In this document: piece after piece, positions 1 through 50,755 of the stretch
Numbering within the stretch: position 1 is the first letter of the stretch
How the letters are laid out: every line of letters starts with the position of its first letter
NCBI RefSeq assembly: GCF_001625215.2
Contig: NC_030385.2
Location: forward strand, 31,459,598-31,523,597
Direction of reading: 5' to 3'
Length of the DNA stretch: 64,000 bases
From: Daucus carota subsp. sativus
Taxonomy: Eukaryota; Streptophyta; Magnoliopsida; Apiales; Apiaceae
Position numbers and translations under genes: made by a program
The notes under the pieces: generated by a model
Database searches by the model: none
The model's input: only the letters and a program-made list of their open reading frames with translations
What the model was told of the DNA's origin: nothing

Positions 1-2609
1 CAATTAGATGAAGGATGTATCTTACTGCTTCTGCCTTGGTCTGAATATTATTGAAGGATTATACCTTTATTGAGAACACATAAATAAGCGAGAGCCCTCG
101 TTGCCAGATTCTGCCTCCAATACACCCGATCATCAGGTTATCTGGGTTAGGACCCCATTCACCATCCACTTCGCAGACTATCTCATAATTCAATTTTCTG
201 AGACTCCAAAATTGAGAATTGAGTTTGTAGAAATAAAGATGAATCGCTCCCATAGGGTTGACTTTCCATAGAGGATCCGAGCTGAATGCAATCAAACCCG
301 AAGCAGAGCCCCATTTATGAATCCTGGCCAAAATTAGCTCTTGGAAGCAAGAATTACTGGTCTCCTTAAATTGAAAAATGAATTCATTTCTTGCCAGCCA
401 CAAGGATCAGAGAACTGCTGCAATTACAAGCCTCCAGATATTTTTGATCCTGGGATCTTTGTAGTGATTTAACAGAGCAGATAAGAAGAATTGGTTAGAT
501 GACATGAATGCAGAGGAGCTCCACCATTGAGCAATAAAATTCCAGCCATGCTTGGCTCGCTTGCACTTCCACATGATATGACTTATGTCCTCACCCACCA
601 AACCACACTCCTCACAAAAATCTTGGAGGGAGCTTATTCTGCTGTGAAGAAGATTTCTGGTGGGGAGAATATTTCTTTCTATTTTTCAGAGGAAAATGAG
701 CACTTTGGGAGGGGCCATGATATTCCAAATTGCTTTCCAGGTTGGATTCCTTATCGAAGGAAGAATAGGTTTGGTTGTAAGCCTGGAGAAGGCTTTACTA
801 TTAAATCCTTTGTGATCCGGAACCCAGGATAGATATCCTCCACACCCGGGGAAAGCACAATGGAATCCACTAGAGCATTGACTTGATTTAGAGAGGCAGT
901 GATCGAATCAGAGGCATTGGCAAACTGAAACAAATTACCCAACCTCACCATGTTTTTTCTGTTAATAAAGTCTAGGACAGTTACCTGATGGAGGGTACAA
1001 GCTTTATAAAGATCTGGGAATTTAGACTGAAGAGGGGAATCAAGGCACCAATAATCCTCCCAAAACAAAGCCGTATTACCACTCCCAATTTTTCATTTGA
1101 AGCTTGATCTGGATAAAAGCCTTTCATTTGTATCTTCTTTATAAATAGATGCAATTCCTCTTATCAAGTACGAACATCTAGAATTGGCTTGCAATTTTGA
1201 CAGATCGAAATTGATCTCTCGCCCGTACCTGCTATTAAGGAACGCATTCCATAAGCTGCCTCTGTTATTATAACACCTCCACCACCACTTAGCTAGCATG
1301 GCTGAAATCTATGTCCTCAACGGTTTCAAACCCAAGCCACCAAGAGATTTATCTTGGCAAATTTCTGACCATTTCAAGAAATGCATCTTCCTAACATTAG
1401 CATTTGAGCCCCATAAAAATTTTCTACGCAGCTGTTCAAGATCTTTGAGGACCTAGCTGGGAATTTTATATAGACCAAACCAAAACGAGGGCAGGCTATC
1501 CACAGAGGCCTTAAGAAGAGTGAGCCTGCCAACCATGGAGATGCTACTAGTGTCCCAAGAGGCTAACCTTCTTTTCATTCGATCGACTAGAGGGTTCCAG
1601 AAGCTAACTCTTTGAGGTGAAGAACCAATCTGAGCTCCCAGGTAGGTAAAGGGTTCTTTCCCTATTGAGCAATTGAGAATCTCAGACAAAATCTGAATGT
1701 CATTTTGCGGGTCTGAAAAACAAAAGAGGTTACTTTTTTGGAAGTTGATTTTCAATCCCGAAAGAAGTTGGAAGCAAGCTAGAATTCTTTTGACACCTAG
1801 AATGGATTCTGTGTCATTGTTTATAAATAGAATCACATCATCCGCAAATTGGAGGTGCGTGACTTGCCAATTTCAGTTGGGCACAGAGATGCCTTTAAAA
1901 ATTCCCAAAGAATTACCCTTAGATAGCAGGCAAGAGAGAACTTCCCCCATAAGCAAGAAAAGTTGGGGAGAAAGGGGGTCCCCTTGGCGAAGACCTCTGC
2001 CTGGGGAAAACTCTCTTGTTGGAGAACCGTTCACTAGAACTGAGATTTTAGAAGAAACAAGGATCGCTTCAATCCAGCTTAACCATATTCTTGGAAAGTT
2101 CATTAGTCCATTACTCTGAGTAAACAGTCCCAATTGACTGTATCAAAGGCCTTCGCGAAGTCGAGTTTTAGGATTATACCTTGGCTTTGTTTTGATTTAA
2201 GGAGGTTATGGATCTCGCTCGTGAGCATTATGCCATCCACCATTTGTCTACCTTTGATAAAAGTCGTCTGATTCTCAGAGATTAAGGATCCCAAAACTTT
2301 GCCCAGCCTTCGAGACAACACTTTAGTAAGCAGTTTCATCGATACATTCATCAAAGTTATCGGACGAAAGTCCGATATAGATTTAGCATCTAGTTTCTTA
2401 GGCAAGAGAGCTATGAAAGACGAGTTGATGCCCTGAGGGAGAGTGCATGATTCATGGAACTTTTGAAATAAGGATAGAATTTTGTCCCTCATAGATGGCC
2501 ACAATGCTTTAAGGACTCCTGCATTAAGACCATCCGGGCCTGGGGCTTTGTTGGCATCCATATCATTGAGAGCCTCCTCTATTTCCACAATAGAGAAACT
2601 ATGACCCAG
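1..2609 (-). mobile_element. L1-type LINE, 3' part (reverse transcriptase and zf-RVT region)
   Basis: This is the downstream part of a non-LTR retrotransposon read on the minus strand, continuing past the left edge of the window. Seen from high to low coordinate: the reverse transcriptase start with NKAPGPDG (about 2540-2560), the palm motif LKLDFAKAFDTVNW (about 2115-2170), the catalytic FADD box (about 1836-1850), and a C-terminal zinc-knuckle stretch with WKCKRAKHGW (about 530-580) followed by a typical LINE tail near 59-403. The reading frame is broken several times by stops and shifts, so the copy is dead. The poly-A end lies outside the window. Removing the solo LTR at 2610-7105 joins this part to 7111-9120. 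Confidence 0.93.
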
Positions 2610-5600
2610 TGTGACGGTCCGAGAATCCGGGGGTCTGGATTCTGACGTCACCACATAAAACCCATTTTTAAACACTATTGAAAACCTGTATTTTTTTTTT
2701 TTGATGATAATGGAAATCCAAATAATTTAAAACTTAAAATATTTGAAAGAGAACATAAATCAAATGATTTCAAAACCTGAATTTCAAACTTGAAAGCCAT
2801 AATAAGAGAATTTCAAGAGAACATTTAAACTTTAATAAATGATTCGAAAGAGACATTTCAACCCCCTAAAAGCAACAGGATCGCATCCAGGTTACAGTAT
2901 TGAAATTAGAATCCACCGCTAATATTACACAACATTTCTTACCAAATCAGATCATCTTCGATAAGAAGAATCACTGTCAACTATTCCAGCTATGACTTAC
3001 ACTTGAATCCCTATAGCACAGCTCTAGCTTGCACCAACCTCATCAACTTTCCTGAACACTCCTCGACCACTGGATCCTCAACTCTGTCTCCTCGCCTAGC
3101 ATTAGCCTTATTCACAATCTCAATCAATCATCTCATCTTTAAGCCTTTCTGAAATGGTTAGAAAGGAATAGCAAGGATGAGCAACAATGCTCAGCAAGTA
3201 ATAATAAACAATGATAGTTCTGAAATGATATAATAGAAGTTCACGAGTTCAAGATATAAGAGGATTCAACCTGAGTTCATGAGTTCATGGTATTGTATAG
3301 AATGATTTACAATACCTTGCAGCATTTAAACTGAGAAATTCAATCTTTCCAAAGAATTATTGAATTGGACTATCACATTTTAATTAAAACCAAGGTTAGG
3401 CTGTTGATCAGACATACCTAACCCCGAGCAGGCCCCGCCATGCTCTGTCACTGGATCCAAGGCACTCATTGGCCTAACATGACCACTCATCTGGTCCGTA
3501 TATTTTTATAAAAACAACAATCCAATTCTATAATTCAATAACAGGTCAACATATAACAACAAAACATAAACACAATCAATATCGATGATAGAATAATTCC
3601 AAATCAAACTTTGATAATCAACTATTCATAAATCATGATCCATCATTTCATAAATCACAGTTCAGGAAATCCTCAACTATTCAGTATCCTCCATTATCGG
3701 CTAAACAACTGAATTTAGCCTGCTAAACCAGCATGACAATGGCGGGTTGAATAATCAAGAAGATCCCAATTCATTCAAAGCTCTAACTATCACTGAGCAA
3801 CACATGCTTCAATGACAATCTGAACTTCGAATTAATTTGTAAAACGGAAATTCTTTAGAAACTTGAAGATTAGAAAGAATGGGTCAGAATACTCGCACTT
3901 TCGAACATTGAAAAGAAAGGTATGAATACTTGAAACATATACCAAAGGAATGGATCAGAATATTTGCAATATATCCAAGAGAAGGGTTTAGGATACTTGC
4001 CTTAAATCTGACTCCAGTCTCATAGCTCAACCTCATCTTTCCACTTTCACAATCTATTCATATCATAATTTTTAGACCATCTCTAGCCATACTCTATTCG
4101 CCACATCGCTTCGCTTACTCGATTCATCCCTTATTCATTTTGCAATACCATTTCGACTTCCTGACGTTTTCGAGCATACACGTCTCGTCCAAATCCTTTA
4201 CGAGAAAAAGATAATACTATAGTCACTAAACAATATATCGCATATACATATCACGTATATCGATACCCCCTTATATATTCCTTTAAACTTATCACATATC
4301 ACTTAACACGTAATCATGCTTTGGCTCTATCATATAGTCAAATCATATATCACAAATCAATCATATAAATCCTGTCGAAATCCGACATCGTCTCGTCTAT
4401 TTGTAGGACTATCCACATGTTATCCTATTCTGTCCAACAACCAATCAATCAATTCCAATTCCTATAATCCATATGTCCTTATCCAATACTAATCAAATCA
4501 TGACACTATGTCATATAAGTCATTTATCACATATGTACCATATTAGGAATAACCACGTAGATCACGTAATCATCAATTCACAGCAAACAAGTCACATATT
4601 GACACATATTGCATATTACATAACATATAACCTCATTCTAGAATCGATAATATTATCTCATTATATTAAAATAGGGTTCACAAGCTTCTATCTCTTTTTC
4701 GTTTCGCTCGATTCCGAATTACGGATCAAAAGTTATGAGCAAAACCGTTTTCTAACTCTTCTATCGGCACATAAAACAGATAGCAGACAACACACTGCAC
4801 ATAAGGTTTCCCACTCCAATTGATGTCAAATCAAGTCTTGGGTTAAAAATGATTTCTCGGGAATTTTCCGGAATTTTTTTTAAACATTTTTCGGAATTAA
4901 AACGGATAAAATAATCATTTTTAAATAAATAATCAAGTCCGAATGCTCAAAACTGGACTTGAAATCATTCATAAACAATTGTCGAGCCTTGAACATAATT
5001 TAGAAAAATATTTCAAAGCTCGAAACTATTTTTCGGAATTTTCAAATCAAAAAGGATAATTAAATCCAATTAATTAATCAATTAAAATCAATTAATAATT
5101 TATTAAATTAATTAATCAATTAATATTTAAATTAATTGACCAATTAAACTAATTAATTACTAATTAAAATTAATTAATAAACTAATTTAGATTTATTTTT
5201 GAATAAAGAATCAATTAAAAACTATTTTTGAAATTAAAATAAATAAATAAAAACATTTTTGAAAATTAAAATCAAAAGGTTTAAAGTGTATAGTTCTGAA
5301 AGTTTGGTGCCAGGGTTTAAAGTGTAAACTTTAAAACGTTTGAGGTCTGGATTGGTAAAACAGAAACTAGGGTGCTACAACTTCACCACCTTCAAAGTTT
5401 GGGGGCTAAACGGCACTTTCGCCGTCGCCGCCCCCAGACTCGCCGCCGGCGAGTCGCCGGTGTTGCCACCGCGCCCAGAACTCAGCGAAACACTCCAGAT
5501 TCATCAACTAATATCCCAGGAACTCGTTTCTGAAATCAAAACATCCAATAGATCAATATATAAGCCGGAAAAACTCCACGAAACTCGCCGTCGCCGGCGA

Positions 5601-7105
5601 GTTCGTTTTGCCCCGGCAAGTCGATTCCAGGCTCCCACGTCCGATTTAAAAACTGAAATCAATTCTTCTCAACTCAACAAACAGGCTGATACCCTCCAAT
5701 TTTACCCAGATTTCACCGATTACAAAGCCCCAAATATCGATTTAAAACATTCAAATCAAATTTGAACCCTAATTCTTCATTTCGAGAATCAACCTCAAAA
5801 TTAAACACGTTACTGAGCTCCAAATCACTCATATGAGATACCAAAATGCTCAGAATTCAATTATCTACAACATACAACCATAAAAACACATGAATAACAT
5901 CAAAATCAAAAAGCCCTAATTCAAATCATATAATTTCGAATTAAAAAGCTTCAATTAGGGATTACCTGTAAATCCCCCACTATTTTTGTTGTCTAAACTA
6001 GATTCTACGCGTCGAGAGCTTCGTTTTGACTATTCATACGCCTCCATCGGATTCCAATAACACCTTCAAATCCTCGTTTGATTACGAAGAACACGAAGAA
6101 CGCAGTTCGGTTTCTCTCGGTATTCGTGAAAAGAAACTGGTGAAATGATTTACGGTTGAAAATAAGGTGTAGAAAATACTATTTATATTTACGAATAATT
6201 GGTACCCCTTTGGATCGTATATGACATGAAAATACGTATTTAATAGCTTTATATTAATAAAGCGGGGTCCAATCGATACCGGTTTTCGAAATAATCATCA
6301 AAACGGGGCTTTTAAAAGAAATGATTAGTCTGCGGGTCCCATTTGCACGTATTTCGATAAAAAGTAATATAATATTCAAAATATCTGGCTTTCACGTATA
6401 TCGAGACAAACCAGATAATTATCAACAATTAAAATACCCGCAAAACTCCGCCGGACCAACTCCGGGGAAAACCGTACTCCGGATCGAAAAAGTCAAAACA
6501 CGAAAAATGTCCGGAATATTCAAATTAGGCTAAAGGTGAGTTTTATCGTAACTTCCGGGAAGAAAATCGATACACCGTTACAAGTGGACGGTTTTACGAA
6601 AATCAAATAATTAATAAATAGTTACAAATATACGCAATTTAATCCATGAATCAATTATAAAATCGTATATCAATCCACAAATCGATATGAAAATATCCAA
6701 ATAAACTATATTTTCTCCTGAGCATTTAGAAATTGAAATCTCGTGAATACGGACACATACGAGCATTCAGCTCAATAAACTAAATAATGCAAAATTCACA
6801 AAATTATATAATAATCACATAATAATCATAAATCACCATAAATAATTAAACGAGCAATACCACAAGTAACACTTAGTCACATACCACATATATTCACATA
6901 ATTATCATCTAGAATTTTCAAAACAATATATGAAAATCAGTTTTGAAAATACAATTATTTATTAATAACACAATAACCCGGGTTTAAGTATAAAACCTTG
7001 AAAACTCATTAAACTGGAATAAAATATTAAATCTTATTCTTTTCTTTTTTAAGAAAATCATTTATAATATTAATAAAAATATTTTTAAGAATCCGGGTCA
7101 TTACA
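2610..7105. mobile_element. Solo LTR of a long-LTR retrotransposon, nested in the LINE
   Basis: A 4,496 bp insert begins TGTGACGG and ends CATTACA (TG..CA ends), with imperfectly inverted termini. It is flanked by CCCAG (2605-2609) and CTCAG (7106-7110), a 5 bp target duplication with one difference. No second copy of the left end occurs near the right end and no gag, protease, RT or integrase is readable, so this is a solo LTR rather than a whole element. LTRs of this length in plants are usual for Ty3/gypsy lineages such as Tekay or Ogre/Tat; the family is inferred, not shown. A TATAAATAG-like box near 6175-6190 on the minus strand suggests minus orientation. A GC-rich patch (about 5410-5640) and a TTAATTAA-rich tract (about 5055-5230) lie inside. 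It is a fossil, younger than the LINE. Confidence 0.82.
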
Positions 7106-7110
7106 CTCAG

Positions 7111-9125
7111 CTTTGCACTCGAGTCAATAGTAAGAGCTTGGAAAAACCCACTGTTTAAGTCAAAGACTTTTGATAAGCTATTTTGCCCTAGGAAAGATTT
7201 GAAATGATTGAATACAGAAGCTTTAATGGAAATGGGGTCCGTCAGCCATCTGTTATTAATCTCTAGGCCATAGATTTGGTTACTTCTTTTCCTTATCTGA
7301 ATTGCCCTGTGAAAGAATTTTGTGTTCTTCTCTCCATACAATTGCCAGTTAGTCCTAGCCATTTGACAGAGCATTGATGATTTGAGGTTATATAAATGCT
7401 CTAACTTTGCCCTCAGACTCTGTTTACCCTTATCATCCAACCGGACTTCATCCGCACGAGCTAACTCATTTTCCACAGTGGAGATGTTTTCATCAATATT
7501 GCCAAAGCACTCCTTGTTCCATTTTTTTTAGATATCATTCAATACCCTAAGTTTTTGCTGAAAACCCAACTTACCTAGCTTGCCCCACGAGGACTTCAAC
7601 ATGGAAATCCAGTCCTTATCCTTTAACCAACAGCTGAAAAACTTGAACAGCTTAGGGCCCTAGTTGATCTCTTGACTATATAGAACAATTGGCCTGTGGT
7701 CGGATAATTTCCTGTTCAATCCTTTAGATTTCCAGGAACCTTTCTCATCCCAAGCATCATTAATAAGTGCCTTATCCAGCCTACTACGACGATTGGAGGG
7801 GCCATACCACATAAAAGTGCAATTGATCATTGGAACTTCTGAAAGATGATTAACTGATATAAAATCCACAAAGTCTCTCATGTCTGTCTGGTTAACCTCG
7901 CAATTCTCCTTCTGCAGAGTGGAGGATACAGCTTTGAAGTCCCCCATTAATAGCACAGGCATGGAACTGATCAAACTAATTCGGCCCGAAATCTGACTCC
8001 ATAAGCGTCTTTTCTCTGCAGTCTTTTGGGGAGCGTATACATTTACACATGCAAACTTTTCACATGTACTTATGATCTCGCCCTGGATCAAATCCAGTTT
8101 CTGTGGATTTCCTTGGCTGCTACTTTAATCTTTTCAGAGTTCCAAACTGTAAGAATACCCCCTGAAAGACCTTCAGAAGGAGCCTCCACCCATATAAACT
8201 GGTTCATTGGAATCATGCTTCCAACTTTACGAGCATTCCACTTTGAGCATTTTGTTTCTTGAATGAAAAGAATGGAGATATTATCCTGAGAAACTAGAGA
8301 TCTGATGTTACCTCTGACCTGGAGATTGTTAGCACCTCTGACATTCTAACTAGAAATTTTAAGAGTATCCATAAAAACAAAATAGCGGGATGGGATTGGC
8401 CTAAAGTCAATCATGTAAATTAGCCCTAATAAGGGCTGGCGATTCCTCCATTCCATTTACAGGAATTAAACCCATCAGGACCCCGGTTTCGAAAATTGCT
8501 TGTGCTTCATCTCTCCCATCTGCACCTTTGCCCGCATTAATCTTGGGAAGGCCTGGTCCTTTGAGAGATCTCCTCCTCTTTGGAACTTTGAGATACTTGT
8601 TTTGCCTCACTTTTTTGCTTGACCTAGGCCTACCTCTCTTCGGTTTAATTTTCATTTTGAGTAGGGCGTTCATGATTGAACTAGTAACAGTATCTTGAAC
8701 AAAGGAGTTATCTTCCACTGTGCTTCCCATGTTCGAAATTTTCGGCGACTGTTTATCCTCAGACTCTGGAGAGTCCTGGTCCATTTTCCTAGATTTCCAA
8801 CAGGCCACATGAATATTCTGAACCTCTCCAGCTTTCCCATCCAGACTATCCTTAAGGGACTAGCATCCTCTACATTAGGGGTTGCAGGGCTTCCATGAGG
8901 AGAGCCCAAGATATCTATGCTACCCAGCAGTGATTCTTTCACAATACTTGGGGAACCGTGAGGAATTGGATCCTCTACCAGTCTTAAAGAAGAGCCAGAC
9001 TTGTTTGACAATGGCCTGCATTCTTCCATGACGAGATGACTTGGAACCGCACTCGAAATATGCTTGGGAGTGGTCCCTTCATCCTGAGAACAGGGTAGAA
9101 CGTTTTCTTTTGCAGGAGTGCTACA
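7111..9125 (-). mobile_element. L1-type LINE, 5' part (ORF1 tail, endonuclease, start of RT)
   Basis: This is the upstream part of the same LINE. On the minus strand, 8407-9029 holds the tail of an ORF1-like region with an AT-hook-like basic stretch KPKRGRPRS. 7660-8091 holds an apurinic-type endonuclease with LLMGDFKAV, RLDKAL and the catalytic LSDHRPI motif. 7111-7476 holds the linker to reverse transcriptase (KFFHRAIQIRKR). Start and stop signals are broken between these blocks. Homology fades near 9125, so the copy is 5' truncated or its 5' end is too diverged to see; no target repeat could be matched because the other end is off the window. Confidence 0.9.
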
Positions 9126-9324
9126 TTCTTATTATTAGAAAATCGCTATAATAGTTTTATATATTTTTAATTTTATTTTGCTGACCCAATTTTTCTGATC
9201 TTTTATTTTTTTTTCAATCATTTTGTGCTCTGTAACTTATTATTTTCATTTATTTGTATTGCATTTTTCAAGATACTTGAAAGGATGCAATATAAAGTAA
9301 GAGCTCTTATGGTTGTTTTTATAC

Positions 9325-9412
9325 CGAACATTAAAACTTTGTTGCTTAAATGTCCCCGATCATCAATATATATTTGAGGGTTAGACGTTAAACTTTCTTA
9401 AATAAAAGAAAC
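9325..9412 (+). repeat. Dispersed repeat copy A (shared with 25595-25675)
   Basis: A stretch containing ACATTAAAA..TTAAAT..CCCCGATCATC and ending in a TTTCTTAAAT run is also found at about 25595-25675. The second copy sits just upstream of a poly-A tail inside a retroposon-like insert, so this may be the 3' part of an unnamed short retroposon. Confidence 0.5.
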
Positions 9413-16697: not shown

Positions 16698-17974
16698 GAA
16701 AATCAGCTGCACCTCGTGCTCTGTATCAAGTACCAACAGGCCTAACATTCCATTATGGTATCTTAGTAACATCTTAGTGGTTTTCTGGTGAAGCCCAGTA
16801 AGGCTGTTGCTTCTCATCACTTGTAACATTACAAGTAGAGAGTTATGTTCTTCGTTCTCTTTCTTAGAATTTATTTTCAGGAAGCTCTTATTTAGAGCAG
16901 CAACCTGGAGGCCGTTGCTTTTCATTACTTGTAACATTGCAAGTAAAACGTTAGGCTCTCCTTTTTCTTTCATAAACATTTTTCACAGGCAGTTGTTTAG
17001 AGCAGTAATAATTGCCTTCAAATACTCAAATTGTTGGATTGAATGTTGATGATAACTTTCTATCATCATATCTTTTGCGTTATATACAAAGACCTTTTGA
17101 CTTTCTAAAACTATCAATGGGGTGTTTTTGAAGTACCTTTCTATATATTTATGCTGGATTTGAGATTATTTTTTATAAAGGTTTTCCTTTATATCTTTTG
17201 CTTAGTACATTTTTATATATTTATTTTGGATTTGGGATTATTTTTGAAAATAGCTTTCTTTTATATCTTTTGCTTAGATCCTCGTAAAGAGGTAGAAAAG
17301 ACTAAGACTGCTACTTCTTACCAAAAATATTCAAATACACTAAGAGTGTTTGGAAATGTATATTCCAAAGTGTTTGGAAATGTATATTCCAAAGCGTTTG
17401 AAAATGTATATTTCATTTAGATTTCAAATGACATGATTTGAATTGTCCGGATTTCAAATGAAATCCAAACCTATATAATATCCCAAACAGGTTAATTTGT
17501 TCAAATTCAGAATTTTAAATGAAACCCAGGTTCTCAAATGACCATAAATTGATCGCAGTGACATCACTTGCATAATGGTATTCATTTCTGTATCTGCAAC
17601 TTCTGCAACAGATATAGTTAAATCTGATTGCTAAGTAGCTATGCTGGCACTCTATACAGGGCAAGAATATATCTGCATTTGTTAGAACTTCTATATACTG
17701 TGCCATTTTTAATGAAATGGCATATAACATTTTCCTGTATTTTCGATAAATATTACAATGCTTTTTGCAATATCATTGCACAATCCATCTCTAAATCTAC
17801 TAATTTATAGTGTACCTATTACATGAAAATAGCTCTACAATGTACAGGCTTATATCTTAATATCTGAGTGCAAGTGATACAACAGAAGTACATATAGACA
17901 CATCTTCTGATAGAAACATATGGAGTAGTGCATCCCGCTGGTAAGAGGTAATAGACCATGCCTTCCCTGTATCT
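16698..17974. other. Convergent intergenic region
   Basis: It separates two converging genes and presumably holds both 3' UTRs. A 24 bp unit (GTGTTTGGAAATGTATATTC plus four bases) is repeated nearly three times at 17346-17416. Two similar CTTGTAACATT.ACAAGTA words lie at about 16820 and 16930. No further gene is seen. Confidence 0.55.
17346..17416. repeat. Short tandem repeat, 24 bp unit, about 3 copies
   Basis: Copies lie at 17346-17369, 17370-17393 and 17394-17416. The first two are identical and the third has a few changes. Non-coding. Confidence 0.8.
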
Positions 17975-23900: not shown

Positions 23901-24459
23901 CACAAATGATCGGTACTAAGTTCCGACTTCTAATTATTTCTAACTGATAAGAAAACAATATACATCACAAATATGAAGTAATTAAGTTACTTGCCAAATG
24001 AAGAAGACAAATGTCTGGGCTTTCCATAATTATTATACATTATTTAAATTCCGAAAAATGAATACCTTTGGGACCGGAAAATTTAACGTCCTCATCTTCG
24101 TTATATTCATCGTCTTCGTCATCATTATCATTATCATCGTCGTCGTCATCACCGTCCAATCCATTTCCGTCATTCACATTCCACGCATGAACAGGAGCAG
24201 CATAAACCGGTCGGCCGAACTCGACCGTCTGAAAAAACCGGTTGGACTCGTCAATAAAGCCGGCGGTCAGCTCGCGAGTTGTTTTGGGCCCAGGATCGCC
24301 GGAGCTGCGATTGAACGGAGGAAAGCCGTGGACTGAACCGGCGTTAGGGAAGAGGAGATGGTGAGGTTGATTGAGTGAAACGACGCCGTTGTGGTGAGTT
24401 GCTGTGGTGATCGGCGGCGGCGTTGAGGTAGGTAGCAAGGTCATTTCTTTACCGGACAT
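17975..24459 (-). CDS. PUB62: U-box domain protein, PUB62/63 type E3 ligase (407 aa)
   Basis: Eight exons on the minus strand join in frame: 24066-24459, 23436-23745, 22392-22473, 21473-21530, 20581-20669, 18482-18577, 18329-18399 and 17975-18098. The N-terminus is Pro/Thr-rich (LLPTSTPPPITT), followed by a strongly acidic run of Asp/Glu/Asn near residues 100-125. The U-box is read across exons 2 to 4: LRKILSDPLTG, SLMDDAMILPCGHSFGGGG, KACYTCSQPVSEG. The family works as ubiquitin ligases that bind an E2 through this fold. A basic helix follows (EEEMQSHRASKRRKEKFEQ), then a C-terminal domain with VGREAVVTTQCLNGWYVVK. The call as PUB62/63 rests on the C-terminal extension and on the position beside the ARR and GLY1 genes. 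Introns carry a Stowaway element and a SINE. The 5' end faces the 24.5-26.8 kb gap. Confidence 0.88.
20805..20993. mobile_element. Stowaway-type MITE in intron of the U-box gene
   Basis: Terminal inverted repeats CTCCCTCTGTCCCC and GGGACGGAGGGAG lie between TA dinucleotides (20803-20804 and 20994-20995), the target site of Tc1/mariner-type MITEs. The left end also carries a perfect internal 12 bp hairpin (CCCTCTGTCCCC ... GGGGACAGAGGG). Non-coding, 189 bp. Confidence 0.85.
21771..21962 (+). mobile_element. tRNA-derived SINE in intron of the U-box gene
   Basis: The head has an A-box-like GTGGCCTAGTGGT and a B-box GGTTCGATCCC with suitable spacing, followed by a non-tRNA body and an A-rich 3' end (CAAAAAAAAATAAAAATAAA). 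This is the layout of a Pol III-driven SINE. Target repeats were not clear, so the ends are approximate. It is not a working tRNA gene because it has no cloverleaf 3' half. Confidence 0.8.
23866..23893. repeat. Homopolymer pair, poly-C then poly-A
   Basis: A C run followed by CA and an A run lies in the first intron of the U-box gene. Run lengths here are prone to sequencing error. Confidence 0.85.
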
Positions 24460-24903
24460 TGGGAATAAAGTTAACTTAGTTGATTAATTTACTGACGGTA
24501 AAAAGATGTTCATGTGCAGAAGAGGGGGAAATTAGGGTGGTTTGTTTGGGATTGAAGTGGAGGAAGATGATCTAAACGACGTCGTGAGCAGTGTAGAGTA
24601 TGTTCTGACATAGCACTGTGTACGATATAGTGTCGGTCAACGTCTTGTTTAGTGACTAGCTAGTGAGTGTAATAGACCGAACTAGAAACTACTCCCTCAG
24701 AATGTTTCGCGTACACGTTTAAAAATATTTTTAATGAATAAGAATATTTGTTAATATTTTTATACACAAAAAAATAATAATAATTATATTGTAGACAAAT
24801 AGTCGAAATTCTTAAAAACTCGTGTAAAAAGGTTAAGATAACTTACGTTTTCTAGAATATTAGTTGTAACATCAAACATAGAGTTGTACTAATGACATAT
24901 CTA

Positions 24904-25018
24904 TATTGCTACAAGTTCTAAACTCGAAAAAGTTCTTGGCGATTACTTTTTCGAAGACAAACGTTATTTTGGTCTTGAGAATTTTGGTAATACTTGCTAT
25001 TGCAACTATGTTTTTCAG
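24904..25018 (+). pseudogene. Captured exon 1 of a UBP3/UBP4-type ubiquitin protease
   Basis: The reading is [18 protein letters not shown] then [19 protein letters not shown], directly followed by GTATCTTCG, a plausible splice donor. Arabidopsis UBP3/UBP4 begin with a very similar stretch ending [12 protein letters not shown] at an exon border (recalled, not searched). The motif GNTCYCN is the Cys box of the UBP peptidase family, with the nucleophile Cys. The normal start codon and the first residues are not matched, and no exon 2 follows, so this is a gene fragment and not a working protease. T-rich DNA downstream looks like retained intron. Confidence 0.72.
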
Positions 25019-25287
25019 GTATCTTCGTTATTTTTGTTTGTTACTTTCATTTTATGATTTATTTTGAGTGGAATTGAAAAGGTGTTGATTTTAATCTTGT
25101 TTGTTTGTGGGTATTTGTTTTTTGTTTAATTCTTGTGTTTTGTTTGTTTTTTGGTGTTTTTGGCGATTTTTCATGTTACAAATGAGACGTTTCGTTGTTT
25201 GCTTCACATACGACGAGGCAACTTGACCGATAGCATAGCGGTGGTGGCCGATGGTGGCGGTTTTCGGGACGGGATTCGGTAGGAAAG

Positions 25288-25436
25288 CACTAATTGTGCC
25301 TTATTGAAGGCGTAAATTGTGCCTCCTAATTGAGGGCGTTAATTGTGTCTCTTTATTGAGGGTGTAAATTGTGCCTCCTAATTGAGAGCGTTAATTGTGC
25401 CTCTTTATTGAGGGCGTAAATTGTGCCTTAATCAAG
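25288..25436. repeat. Tandem repeat of TTAATTGTGCCT / ATTGAGGGCG words
   Basis: A unit of about 55 bp built from two half-units (AATTGTGCCTCCTAATTGAG and AATTGTGCCTCTTTATTGAG with linker) is repeated about 2.5 times. Non-coding; inside the retroposon-like insert. Confidence 0.75.
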
Positions 25437-25594
25437 GATATTAATATTTTATTATTAAGCTCTCAATCATGAGTTATCATGATTGTGGGAATATTTTGAT
25501 ATAATCTGTTAAATATATCTACTTATATTCTTCTTGTTTCTCTTGTTTTGTTTTTAGGATTCTTGGAAGAAGACCGATTTTTCTTTTCGGACAT

Positions 25595-25675
25595 TAAAAT
25601 TTTATTGTTTAAATTTCCCCGATCATCGTGCATGTCCGACGGCTAGATAATAAGTTTTCTTAAATGAAAAAATTA
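25595..25675 (+). repeat. Dispersed repeat copy B (shared with 9325-9412)
   Basis: It shares the ACATTAAAA ... CCCCGATCATC ... TTTCTTAAAT core with 9325-9412. It lies about 55 bp before the poly-A tail of the retroposon-like insert. Confidence 0.5.
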
Positions 25676-26809
25676 TCACCGTGAATTGCCGATTGTCGTT
25701 GAGATTTATTCTCATTTTCAGAAGAAAAAAAAAAACTTACGTTTTCTAGTATATAGATTTTAAGACAATTTCCAAGTTAGTTTAACAAAACTAGGGTTAT
25801 CCAAATTTGTTGTAATAATTCTATATGATATTTAATTCTTGAGAGTGTGTTATGGGCCGGCGAGGGTCATGTTTCGCTTGGCAATAACATGATCATCCAC
25901 TCATCCAGTTCTTTTCTCGTTTCATGTCACGACTTAATTATGAATGGAAAAGTCGCGTCTAGTCGCAAAAAATATGCACTGTTGGGACATGACATGTCTA
26001 TTTTATGTATACAAAATTCATTTATTAATCTTTTTATTATAAAAGTACCAATAACAAGTTTGTATAATTGCATCTTTGTAGGATTATAGTGTCAAATGGA
26101 TTACGATTAATAGATTCAAAAATAATGTTTTAAATATAATATTTCGATTCAATGATCTTAAATAGCATTCTAAAATTCTCTCCGTCATGGTTTATTATAT
26201 TAAAATCTCATTTAAAATTGTGTGTTGAGGTGAAAAATCTACTAAAAACAGTGTTTTGAACGGAAAATCCAATTTAGAGTATATAATATGTCAATATTAT
26301 ATTATATTATATTCTGGAAGGCAATTTAAATATGTTGACGGTATTCGAACTTTAGACCTTAAATAGTATGAGTATCAGAAAGAATAATCTAATAGTAAAT
26401 TTGATTAAGTGATCAAACCGTTATAATTTATTATATCGGATACAAATCAATGAGCAAAATTTTGCATTTTTAGTTTTAAAATTTTAAAAAATTGATTACA
26501 GTTAGTAAATTGGAAAAATATTAACTAAGCAACATTTTTTTCCCTTTTTTTTTTCTAAGCAACATTATTAATTGATGGAATATTTATAAGCGAGACACGT
26601 TACAAGGAGGCCGCCTGAGCGAGGAGACTTGGATTTGTGGAGTCTTCCCTCGAATCCCATACAAGGTAGAACACAACCCAGAACTCTGATTCACACTCTC
26701 GTGCCCTCAATCTCTGTACAACCTTCTCATCATCTATATTGCTAAAGACGCACAGATTTCCATTCATATATATTCAGACCTACACGTACATAAATACCAT
26801 AACACCATC

Positions 26810-43006: not shown

Positions 43007-43697
43007 GGGATCTTTTTAAAAATACCCATCTGTAAAATTTTTTTTTTAAAAATACTACCATCTTTTTCATTGTTTTTAAAAATACCTTTTCATAAATTTT
43101 TTTTTTCAAAAATACGATTTGCAACTTTTGCAACCTCATTTGCAACCTTGGGCGGCGCAGCCGTAAAAGTTGCAAATGAGTTTGCAAAAGTTGCAAATGA
43201 GGTTGCAAAAGTTACAAATAAAAATGGAAAGTTGCAACTGTTGCAACTGCAATTGTAACTAGTTCAACTGAAAACTGTAAGTTGCAAATGAGGTTGCAAA
43301 AGTTGCAAATGAGGTTGCAAATGAAGTTGCAACTGTAGTTGCAGTTGCAACTTTTGCAACTACAGTTGCAACTTCATTTGCAACCTCAGTTGCAACTAAA
43401 TGCAACTGAAAACTATATATAGTTGTAAATGAGGTTGCAAAAGTTGCAAATGAGGTTGCAACTGCAGTTGCAACTTTTGCAACTTCATTTGCAACCTCAG
43501 TTGCAACTAAATGCAACTGAAAACTGTAAGTAACAACAGATGTATGGTGTGCCCCTGGCGGGGCTATTAGATTACAATAAAATCAACTGAATGCAACCAT
43601 ATGCAACTGAATACAACCATATGCAACCATATATGCAATTACAAATCCTGATTTCAAGTTCCAGTTTTCAAATGTCATTTTCGACCACATTTCCGGA

Positions 43698-50125: not shown

Positions 50126-50536
50126 GGAGGAGTTGTTTGGTTCGACTAGTGGTATAAGGTTGGAAAGAGGAATCGGGTTAAAGTGACATGGGTTTAAGGT
50201 ATCATATCTGATATCATGTATTTGGTTGAGTGGCGCATTAATATATTCAAATTTTAAAATATTAATATATTAACTAAAATTATTAATAAAAGTATTATTA
50301 TTATATATTTTGATATAATCAGATATTATTGTATTAAATATTAATATTTAATTATTTAAATAGACAAAAAATAAATAATGACCCACCACTCTTTTTCCGG
50401 TATCAAAAATCCATACTACCTTGGGGGTTTAGGGTTTGAAGTTTTGCTTTTTGCAACAAAACACGAGGAATGAGTTTGAGTTTGGTCCATTCTGAACACA
50501 TACATGCTTTCATATTTTTGTGAACCAAACGACCCC
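50126..50536 (-). mobile_element. Tourist-type MITE, family A copy 2
   Basis: Ends GGAGGAGTTGTTTGGTTCG and GAACCAAACGACCCC are flanked by TTA on the left and TTG on the right (target repeat with one change). The interior (GGAATCGG, ATCATATCTGATATCATGT, TTTGGTTGAGTG) matches the reverse complement of the element at 46131-46571. 411 bp. Confidence 0.85.
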
Positions 50537-50539
50537 TTG

Positions 50540-50755
50540 AAGCTATTCACGAATAGGGCTTGTGTTTCAAACGGCCTCCTGAAGCTATTCACGAACGAGG
50601 GCTTGTGTTTCAAATGACTCTTTGAAGTTATTCAATAACGAGGGTTTGCTAAATTTGGTTTGAACTCAGCTCAATATTAAAATGGTGTTCCATACCGAAA
50701 AAGTGTGTCCTCAGCTCAATACCAAAATGGTGTTCAATACCGAAAAAGTGTGTGT
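50540..50755. repeat. Two adjoining short tandem arrays
   Basis: A unit of about 43 bp (GAAGCTATTCACGAA.. GGGCTTGTGTTTCAAA) is repeated three times at about 50538-50650. It is followed by a unit of about 48 bp (CAGCTCAATA.. AAAATGGTGTTC.. ATACCGAAAAAGTGTGT) repeated twice at about 50667-50755. They begin directly at the end of the MITE. Confidence 0.75.

Follow-up and report, generated by a model that had tools for sequence, protein, structure and literature searches.

A UBP3/UBP4-like first exon with intron-like DNA in a probable LINE-mobilised insert of a plant genome

The insert at 24856-25733 of the window, by which the whole 64-kb stretch of DNA analysed here is meant, raises the question of how a first exon related to ubiquitin proteases, still joined to a splice donor and intron-like DNA, came to lie in an 878-bp segment between the two copies of a 16-bp direct repeat. 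In our judgement the insert is probably a semi-processed pseudogene of a UBP3/UBP4-type gene, truncated at its 3' end and mobilised by a LINE. On this explanation a UBP pre-mRNA would have started about 50 nt ahead of its start codon, and kept intron 1, with cleavage and polyadenylation taking place within it; the endonuclease and reverse transcriptase of a LINE would then have primed on the A-tail at GAT/AACTTACG, the copy would have been inserted with duplication of 16 bp (up to 21), and it would have decayed afterwards.

UBP-like exon and donor

The plus-strand stretch 24908-25018, an open frame of 37 codons which begins with ATSSKLEK and runs through GNTCYCN, was recognised as the decayed coding part of a UBP exon 1 by phmmer, and by a Pfam UCH match below the cut-off (E 0.003, 17.6 vs 23.9 bits, first 17 profile positions only). 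In the PDB search, the best six of 14 distinct sequences (E up to 10) were USP12 and USP46, with E-values of 1.4e-7 to 1.4e-5, and the match began near the N-termini of the PDB chains; USP8, USP1 and FAF-X matched far more weakly (E 0.1 or worse). An earlier note on this DNA had described the start of a UBP-family protease with its GNTCYCN box. That assignment is upheld by the USP12/USP46 matches (best match human USP12, E 1.4e-7), in whose family context the N-terminal catalytic Cys box is present, but the UBP-like reading in frame begins with the codon at 24908 and not at 24904. We take plant UBP3 and UBP4 to be the orthologues of USP12/USP46. The exon stretch starts 52 nt from the 5' junction, in sense orientation relative to the A-run, and by its position the interval 24856-24907 (plus strand) is a putative 5' leader of the retroposed transcript, from which the start codon has been lost.

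One stretch matched in genome contigs by a shortened degenerate UBP-box pattern, L001, served to check the CNSVLQ residues and the ALY continuation. The last 16 codons of the exon were identical to it at 14 of 16 residues, and within CNSVLQ the insert has Tyr and Phe in place of the Ser and Leu that USP12 and L001 carry. Since there is no in-frame ATG ahead of the UBP-like match and two conserved residues are replaced, the UBP-like stretch is a pseudogene fragment, and the locus is probably a dead one. L001 itself (1-616, minus strand) belongs to a contig whose title names a deltaproteobacterial MAG, but its UBP gene looks eukaryotic and is probably contamination from a eukaryote. The degenerate UBP-box pattern gave 0 matches in viral contigs, a collection not meant for plant genomes.

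Several residue differences from the Arabidopsis sequence would correspond to C-to-T or G-to-A changes. Methylation-driven decay was considered and is not supported by the CpG observed/expected ratios, which were 1.31 for the insert, 1.32 and 1.04 for its flanks, and 0.61 for the window.

The UBP stretch ends in CAG|GTATCT, and this donor scored above 99.2% of the 3338 plus-strand GTs with a donor scoring matrix. After the donor the frame reads 12 codons to a stop, which are by eye unlike the ALYHCQPF of L001, where the reading continues without an intron at the point matching 25018. The 172 nt that follow (25019-25190, plus strand) are 57% T, a value equalled by 0.09% of 6383 overlapping windows, the stretch itself included. 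The claim of the earlier note that the UBP stretch stops at a GT donor with T-rich DNA behind it is confirmed by these two measures. Over the 704 nt from donor to A-run the T-A skew was 0.203, a value that none of 6172 overlapping windows taken outside the insert attained on either strand; for the distal 532 nt alone the skew was modest, being reached by 211 of 6206 windows (299 in absolute value). Plant introns are typically U-rich. On sequence grounds the exon of the parent gene would end at 25018, and 25019-25722 would be its intron 1.

A LINE-mobilised processed pseudogene is expected to lack all or most introns, whereas here a donor and T-rich intron-like DNA are kept; donor and composition would fit the retained intron of a semi-processed pseudogene. 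A complete intron, with the acceptor-like TTTTTAG before 25559, was rejected, as the frame that follows is by eye unlike UBP and gave no Pfam match.

It is extremely unlikely that the exon is part of a living short gene, or that a regulatory RNA is made from the insert: the frame is indeed open over its 37 codons, but it has no ATG, has lost the two conserved residues and meets a stop 12 codons past the donor, and no Rfam family was found at gathering level.

Insert ends and target site

The direct repeat AACTTACGTTTTCTAG lies at 24840-24855 and, as an exact copy, at 25734-25749 (both plus strand), and these are its only two plus-strand occurrences within the 64-kb window. If the match is run on to 24860, 20 of 21 bases are identical, which reflects either a longer duplication or microhomology used at the 5' junction. 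The A-run comprises the 11 bases 25725-25735, of which the final two are common to the 3' repeat copy, so that the copy directly adjoins the run; the context is U-rich (25693-25735, plus strand, with 50% T in 25693-25722). All A-runs of at least 8 bases in the window (16 on the plus and 29 on the minus strand) were screened for direct repeats between 10 and 30 bp long at a distance of up to 9 kb. Among these 45 runs the 16-bp pair was the longest repeat found directly after an A-run, followed by a low-complexity repeat of 14 bp and then one of 12 bp, and in 40 order-3 Markov simulations the longest repeat in that arrangement was 10-13 bp. The duplication adjoining the A-run is beyond chance. 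The proposal of the earlier note, in which identical 16-bp repeats flank an 878-bp insert with a 3' A-run as the mark of a LINE-type insertion, is supported in both parts, the first by the two occurrences and the simulation maximum of 13 bp, the second by the duplication adjoining the run.

The 16 identical bp fall within the 5-20 bp of target-site duplications in LINE-mobilised processed pseudogenes, and 25725-25735 corresponds to their 3' A-tail, the 11 bases presumably being a former poly(A) tail. The insertion was probably made by LINE machinery, in favour of which LINE remnants with endonuclease and reverse-transcriptase domains occur at 1-9 kb in the window. A repeat without mismatches points to a young copy, but within 16 codons two conserved residues have changed: the insert may be older than its repeat would indicate, or its source was already divergent.

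The duplication opens with AA and is preceded by AAGAT, giving the nick context GAT/AACTTA, and the canonical LINE target site TTAAAA is absent at the insert. In Table 3 of PMC2848041, by our count, the nick sites of the Sadhu retroposons have a final T in 7 of 14 cases and the duplications an initial AA in 10 of 14, and Sadhu 7-1 is preceded by AAGAT, as is the duplication of the insert; such sites are attributed there to LINE machinery. The context AAGAT/AA fits the LINE-type sites given for Sadhu.

Likeness to Sadhu extends to a size of about 900 bp, the non-coding nature, the A-tail and a duplication of 7-16 bp (PMC2848041). The insert could belong to a Sadhu-like family of non-autonomous retroposons with many copies, one that arose from a UBP first-exon transcript and moves as a unit. 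A length of 878 bp, a duplication of 16 bp, the A-tail and the nick context are within Sadhu ranges, and changes in conserved residues beside an intact duplication could stem from a master copy. We nevertheless regard this as rather improbable, since partial matches only, and no second copy, were found within the 64-kb window, and the Sadhu 5' motif CAATCGTTSC, sought with up to 2 mismatches, had 77 matches in the window of which none fell in 24840-25749. The insert further differs from Sadhu by its UBP exon homology, no such homology being described for Sadhu in the part of PMC2848041 drawn on here. Quite doubtful, too, is the broader idea that first-exon-plus-intron RNAs with premature poly(A) are a recurrent seed of Sadhu-like plant families, the insert being a member in which the UBP3/4 origin can still be read.

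An exon with its intron start is also the expected product of DNA-level capture of a genomic UBP segment, whether by a Helitron, by a Pack-MULE or as double-strand-break filler. A 16-bp duplication beside an A-run is not known as a mark of any of these. Of the 7 inverted pairs of at least 10 bp sought as terminal inverted repeats of a Pack-MULE or other TIR element, none joins both insert ends, and the sense orientation and 5' placement of the exon fit RNA, which makes capture at the DNA level very unlikely. A tRNA- or 5S-derived SINE head was likewise not found (0 tRNAs in the window by ARAGORN, and nothing in Rfam that reached the gathering level over 24700-25850). The single low-scoring candidate, a MIR397-like Rfam match, was discarded as noise (E 4.1, 17.5 vs 55 bits). 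As the Sadhu motif is absent, and neither a SINE head nor terminal inverted repeats were found, the insert is filed as a probable semi-processed pseudogene.

Interior of the insert and the source RNA

Behind the T-rich start, the intron-like DNA comprises a G+C-richer stretch (25191-25298, plus strand, 53% GC), in which the one frame piece tried gave no Pfam match, a minisatellite (25299-25428, plus strand) of five copies of a 26-bp unit with a 52-bp higher-order unit, and a dispersed repeat taken as non-coding (25579-25672, plus strand), with a second copy at 9316-9410 on the same strand. The two copies are 75.6% identical over 86 columns (to 9325-9410, E 3.5e-10), and 95 columns are covered by the gapped alignment of 25579-25672 with 9316-9410. 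The tandem repeat and the dispersed repeat shared with 9.3 kb, both listed in the earlier note, were found again. A coding dispersed repeat, suggested by frames of either strand that resemble each other between the two copies, was rejected, as protein identity was by eye no better than that of the DNA and the two frame pieces tried had no Pfam match. The insert seems to contain the beginning of the dispersed repeat twice, at 25436-25456, adjoining the minisatellite, and at 25589-25609 (86% over 21 nt). By position, the G+C-rich block, the minisatellite and the dispersed repeat would be contents of the intron.

It is here that a chimeric retroposon has to be weighed, for which reverse transcription would have begun on another polyadenylated RNA, transcribed from a LINE or a repeat, and switched to UBP RNA ahead of integration. 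The dispersed repeat near the A-run and the middle part without known relation to UBP are in keeping with this, and a jump into UBP intron 1 would leave an identical exon-donor pattern. If the jump had fallen at random within the exon, a UBP reading that stops at a strong donor with T-rich DNA behind it would be a rare outcome. The 9.3-kb copy of the dispersed repeat is outside the LINE-region ORFs, and blastn of the insert against the LINE region at 1-9 kb (E up to 1) returned one chance-level match of 44 bp at 5867-5910 (E 0.59). Such template switching is in our view unlikely.

In the preferred explanation, a retroposed, prematurely ended pre-mRNA, the order of parts on the plus strand is that of the pre-mRNA itself: short leader, exon 1, donor, intron-like DNA and A-run. 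No capture step is needed, since an intron-1-retaining transcript polyadenylated within intron 1 gives exon 1, donor, U-rich DNA and an A-tail. The earlier note had taken the captured intron start to suggest template switching, read-through RNA or DNA capture, an inference that can on this account be dispensed with; when a retroposed insert contains an exon and the beginning of its intron, this is by itself no proof of template switching or DNA capture. Points against the explanation are the nick, which is not TTAAAA, the G+C-rich block, the minisatellite and the dispersed repeat, whose tie to a UBP intron is one of position, and the poly(A) signal: none of the ten AATAAA-like variants sought occurs within 60 nt of the A-run, and the nearest ones start 61-76 nt ahead of it. 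Such a distance is longer than usual.

The kind of genomic fossil is essentially known. The TMF1 insertion in human CYBB, as it is outlined in PMC4151081, contains exons 1-8 together with intron 7 and a large part of intron 8, and its poly(A) tail comes behind a signal that lies in an intron. It has in common with the insert a LINE-type insertion, 5' exon(s), what in the insert would be unspliced intron sequence, and an A-tail, the TMF1 copy ending at an intronic poly(A) site (PMC4151081). Unlike it, the insert is from a plant, holds exon 1 and a part of the presumed intron 1 only, and is decayed and intergenic. As for the RNA, PMC8116057 reports that Arabidopsis FPA is polyadenylated within its own intron 1, and describes NLR genes with intronic poly(A) sites. 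L1-like retrocopies occur in dicots according to PMC4838847, where the standard model fits perfectly in one of the cases only; they share with the insert the A-tail and a target-site duplication of similar length. These retrocopies are described in PMC4838847 by tail, duplication and target site, whereas in the insert an intron start is kept and the transcript would have been cut short.

Among the matches listed, at the level of titles and abstract openings, no plant semi-processed, intron-retaining or intronically polyadenylated retrocopy was found, and a plant precedent may exist; in the main text of a 2026 plant gene-capture review (PMC13317346) the terms 'intron', 'unspliced', 'retrocop' and 'non-LTR' had 0 occurrences. 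If the explanation is right, the insert preserves in DNA, as a fossil, the polyadenylation of a plant gene's RNA within an intron, and plant LINEs can mobilise unspliced, prematurely ended pre-mRNA, like human L1.

Surroundings in the window

The window has a GC percentage of 34.6 and holds interrupted eukaryotic genes, e.g. for TFIIS and glycerol-3-phosphate dehydrogenase, as well as a DUF7356 match below the cut-off; these features, the decayed LINE remnants and the UBP motif are in keeping with plant nuclear DNA. The insert is flanked by divergent ORFs, at 24040-24459 on the minus strand and from 27393 onward on the plus strand, both of which overlap opposite-strand ORFs, and the gene assignments there are weak. 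Searches of collections not meant for plant genomes gave 0 matches in viral contigs for each of three insert-derived patterns, and no match in plasmids by blastn in distant mode.

The LINE remnants extend over 59-9029 on the minus strand in broken-up form, with a reverse transcriptase domain at 2103-2675 and an endonuclease domain at 7660-8091; they may stem from a single interrupted element or from several. Just upstream of the LINE-region ORFs at 8407-9029 is the 9.3-kb copy of the dispersed repeat. Elsewhere in the window, tandem repeats with units of 72 bp and 43-45 bp were found at 17132-17277 and 50526-50753, and a dense short-repeat array built on GTTGCAAATGAG / TTGCAAC at 43165-43508.
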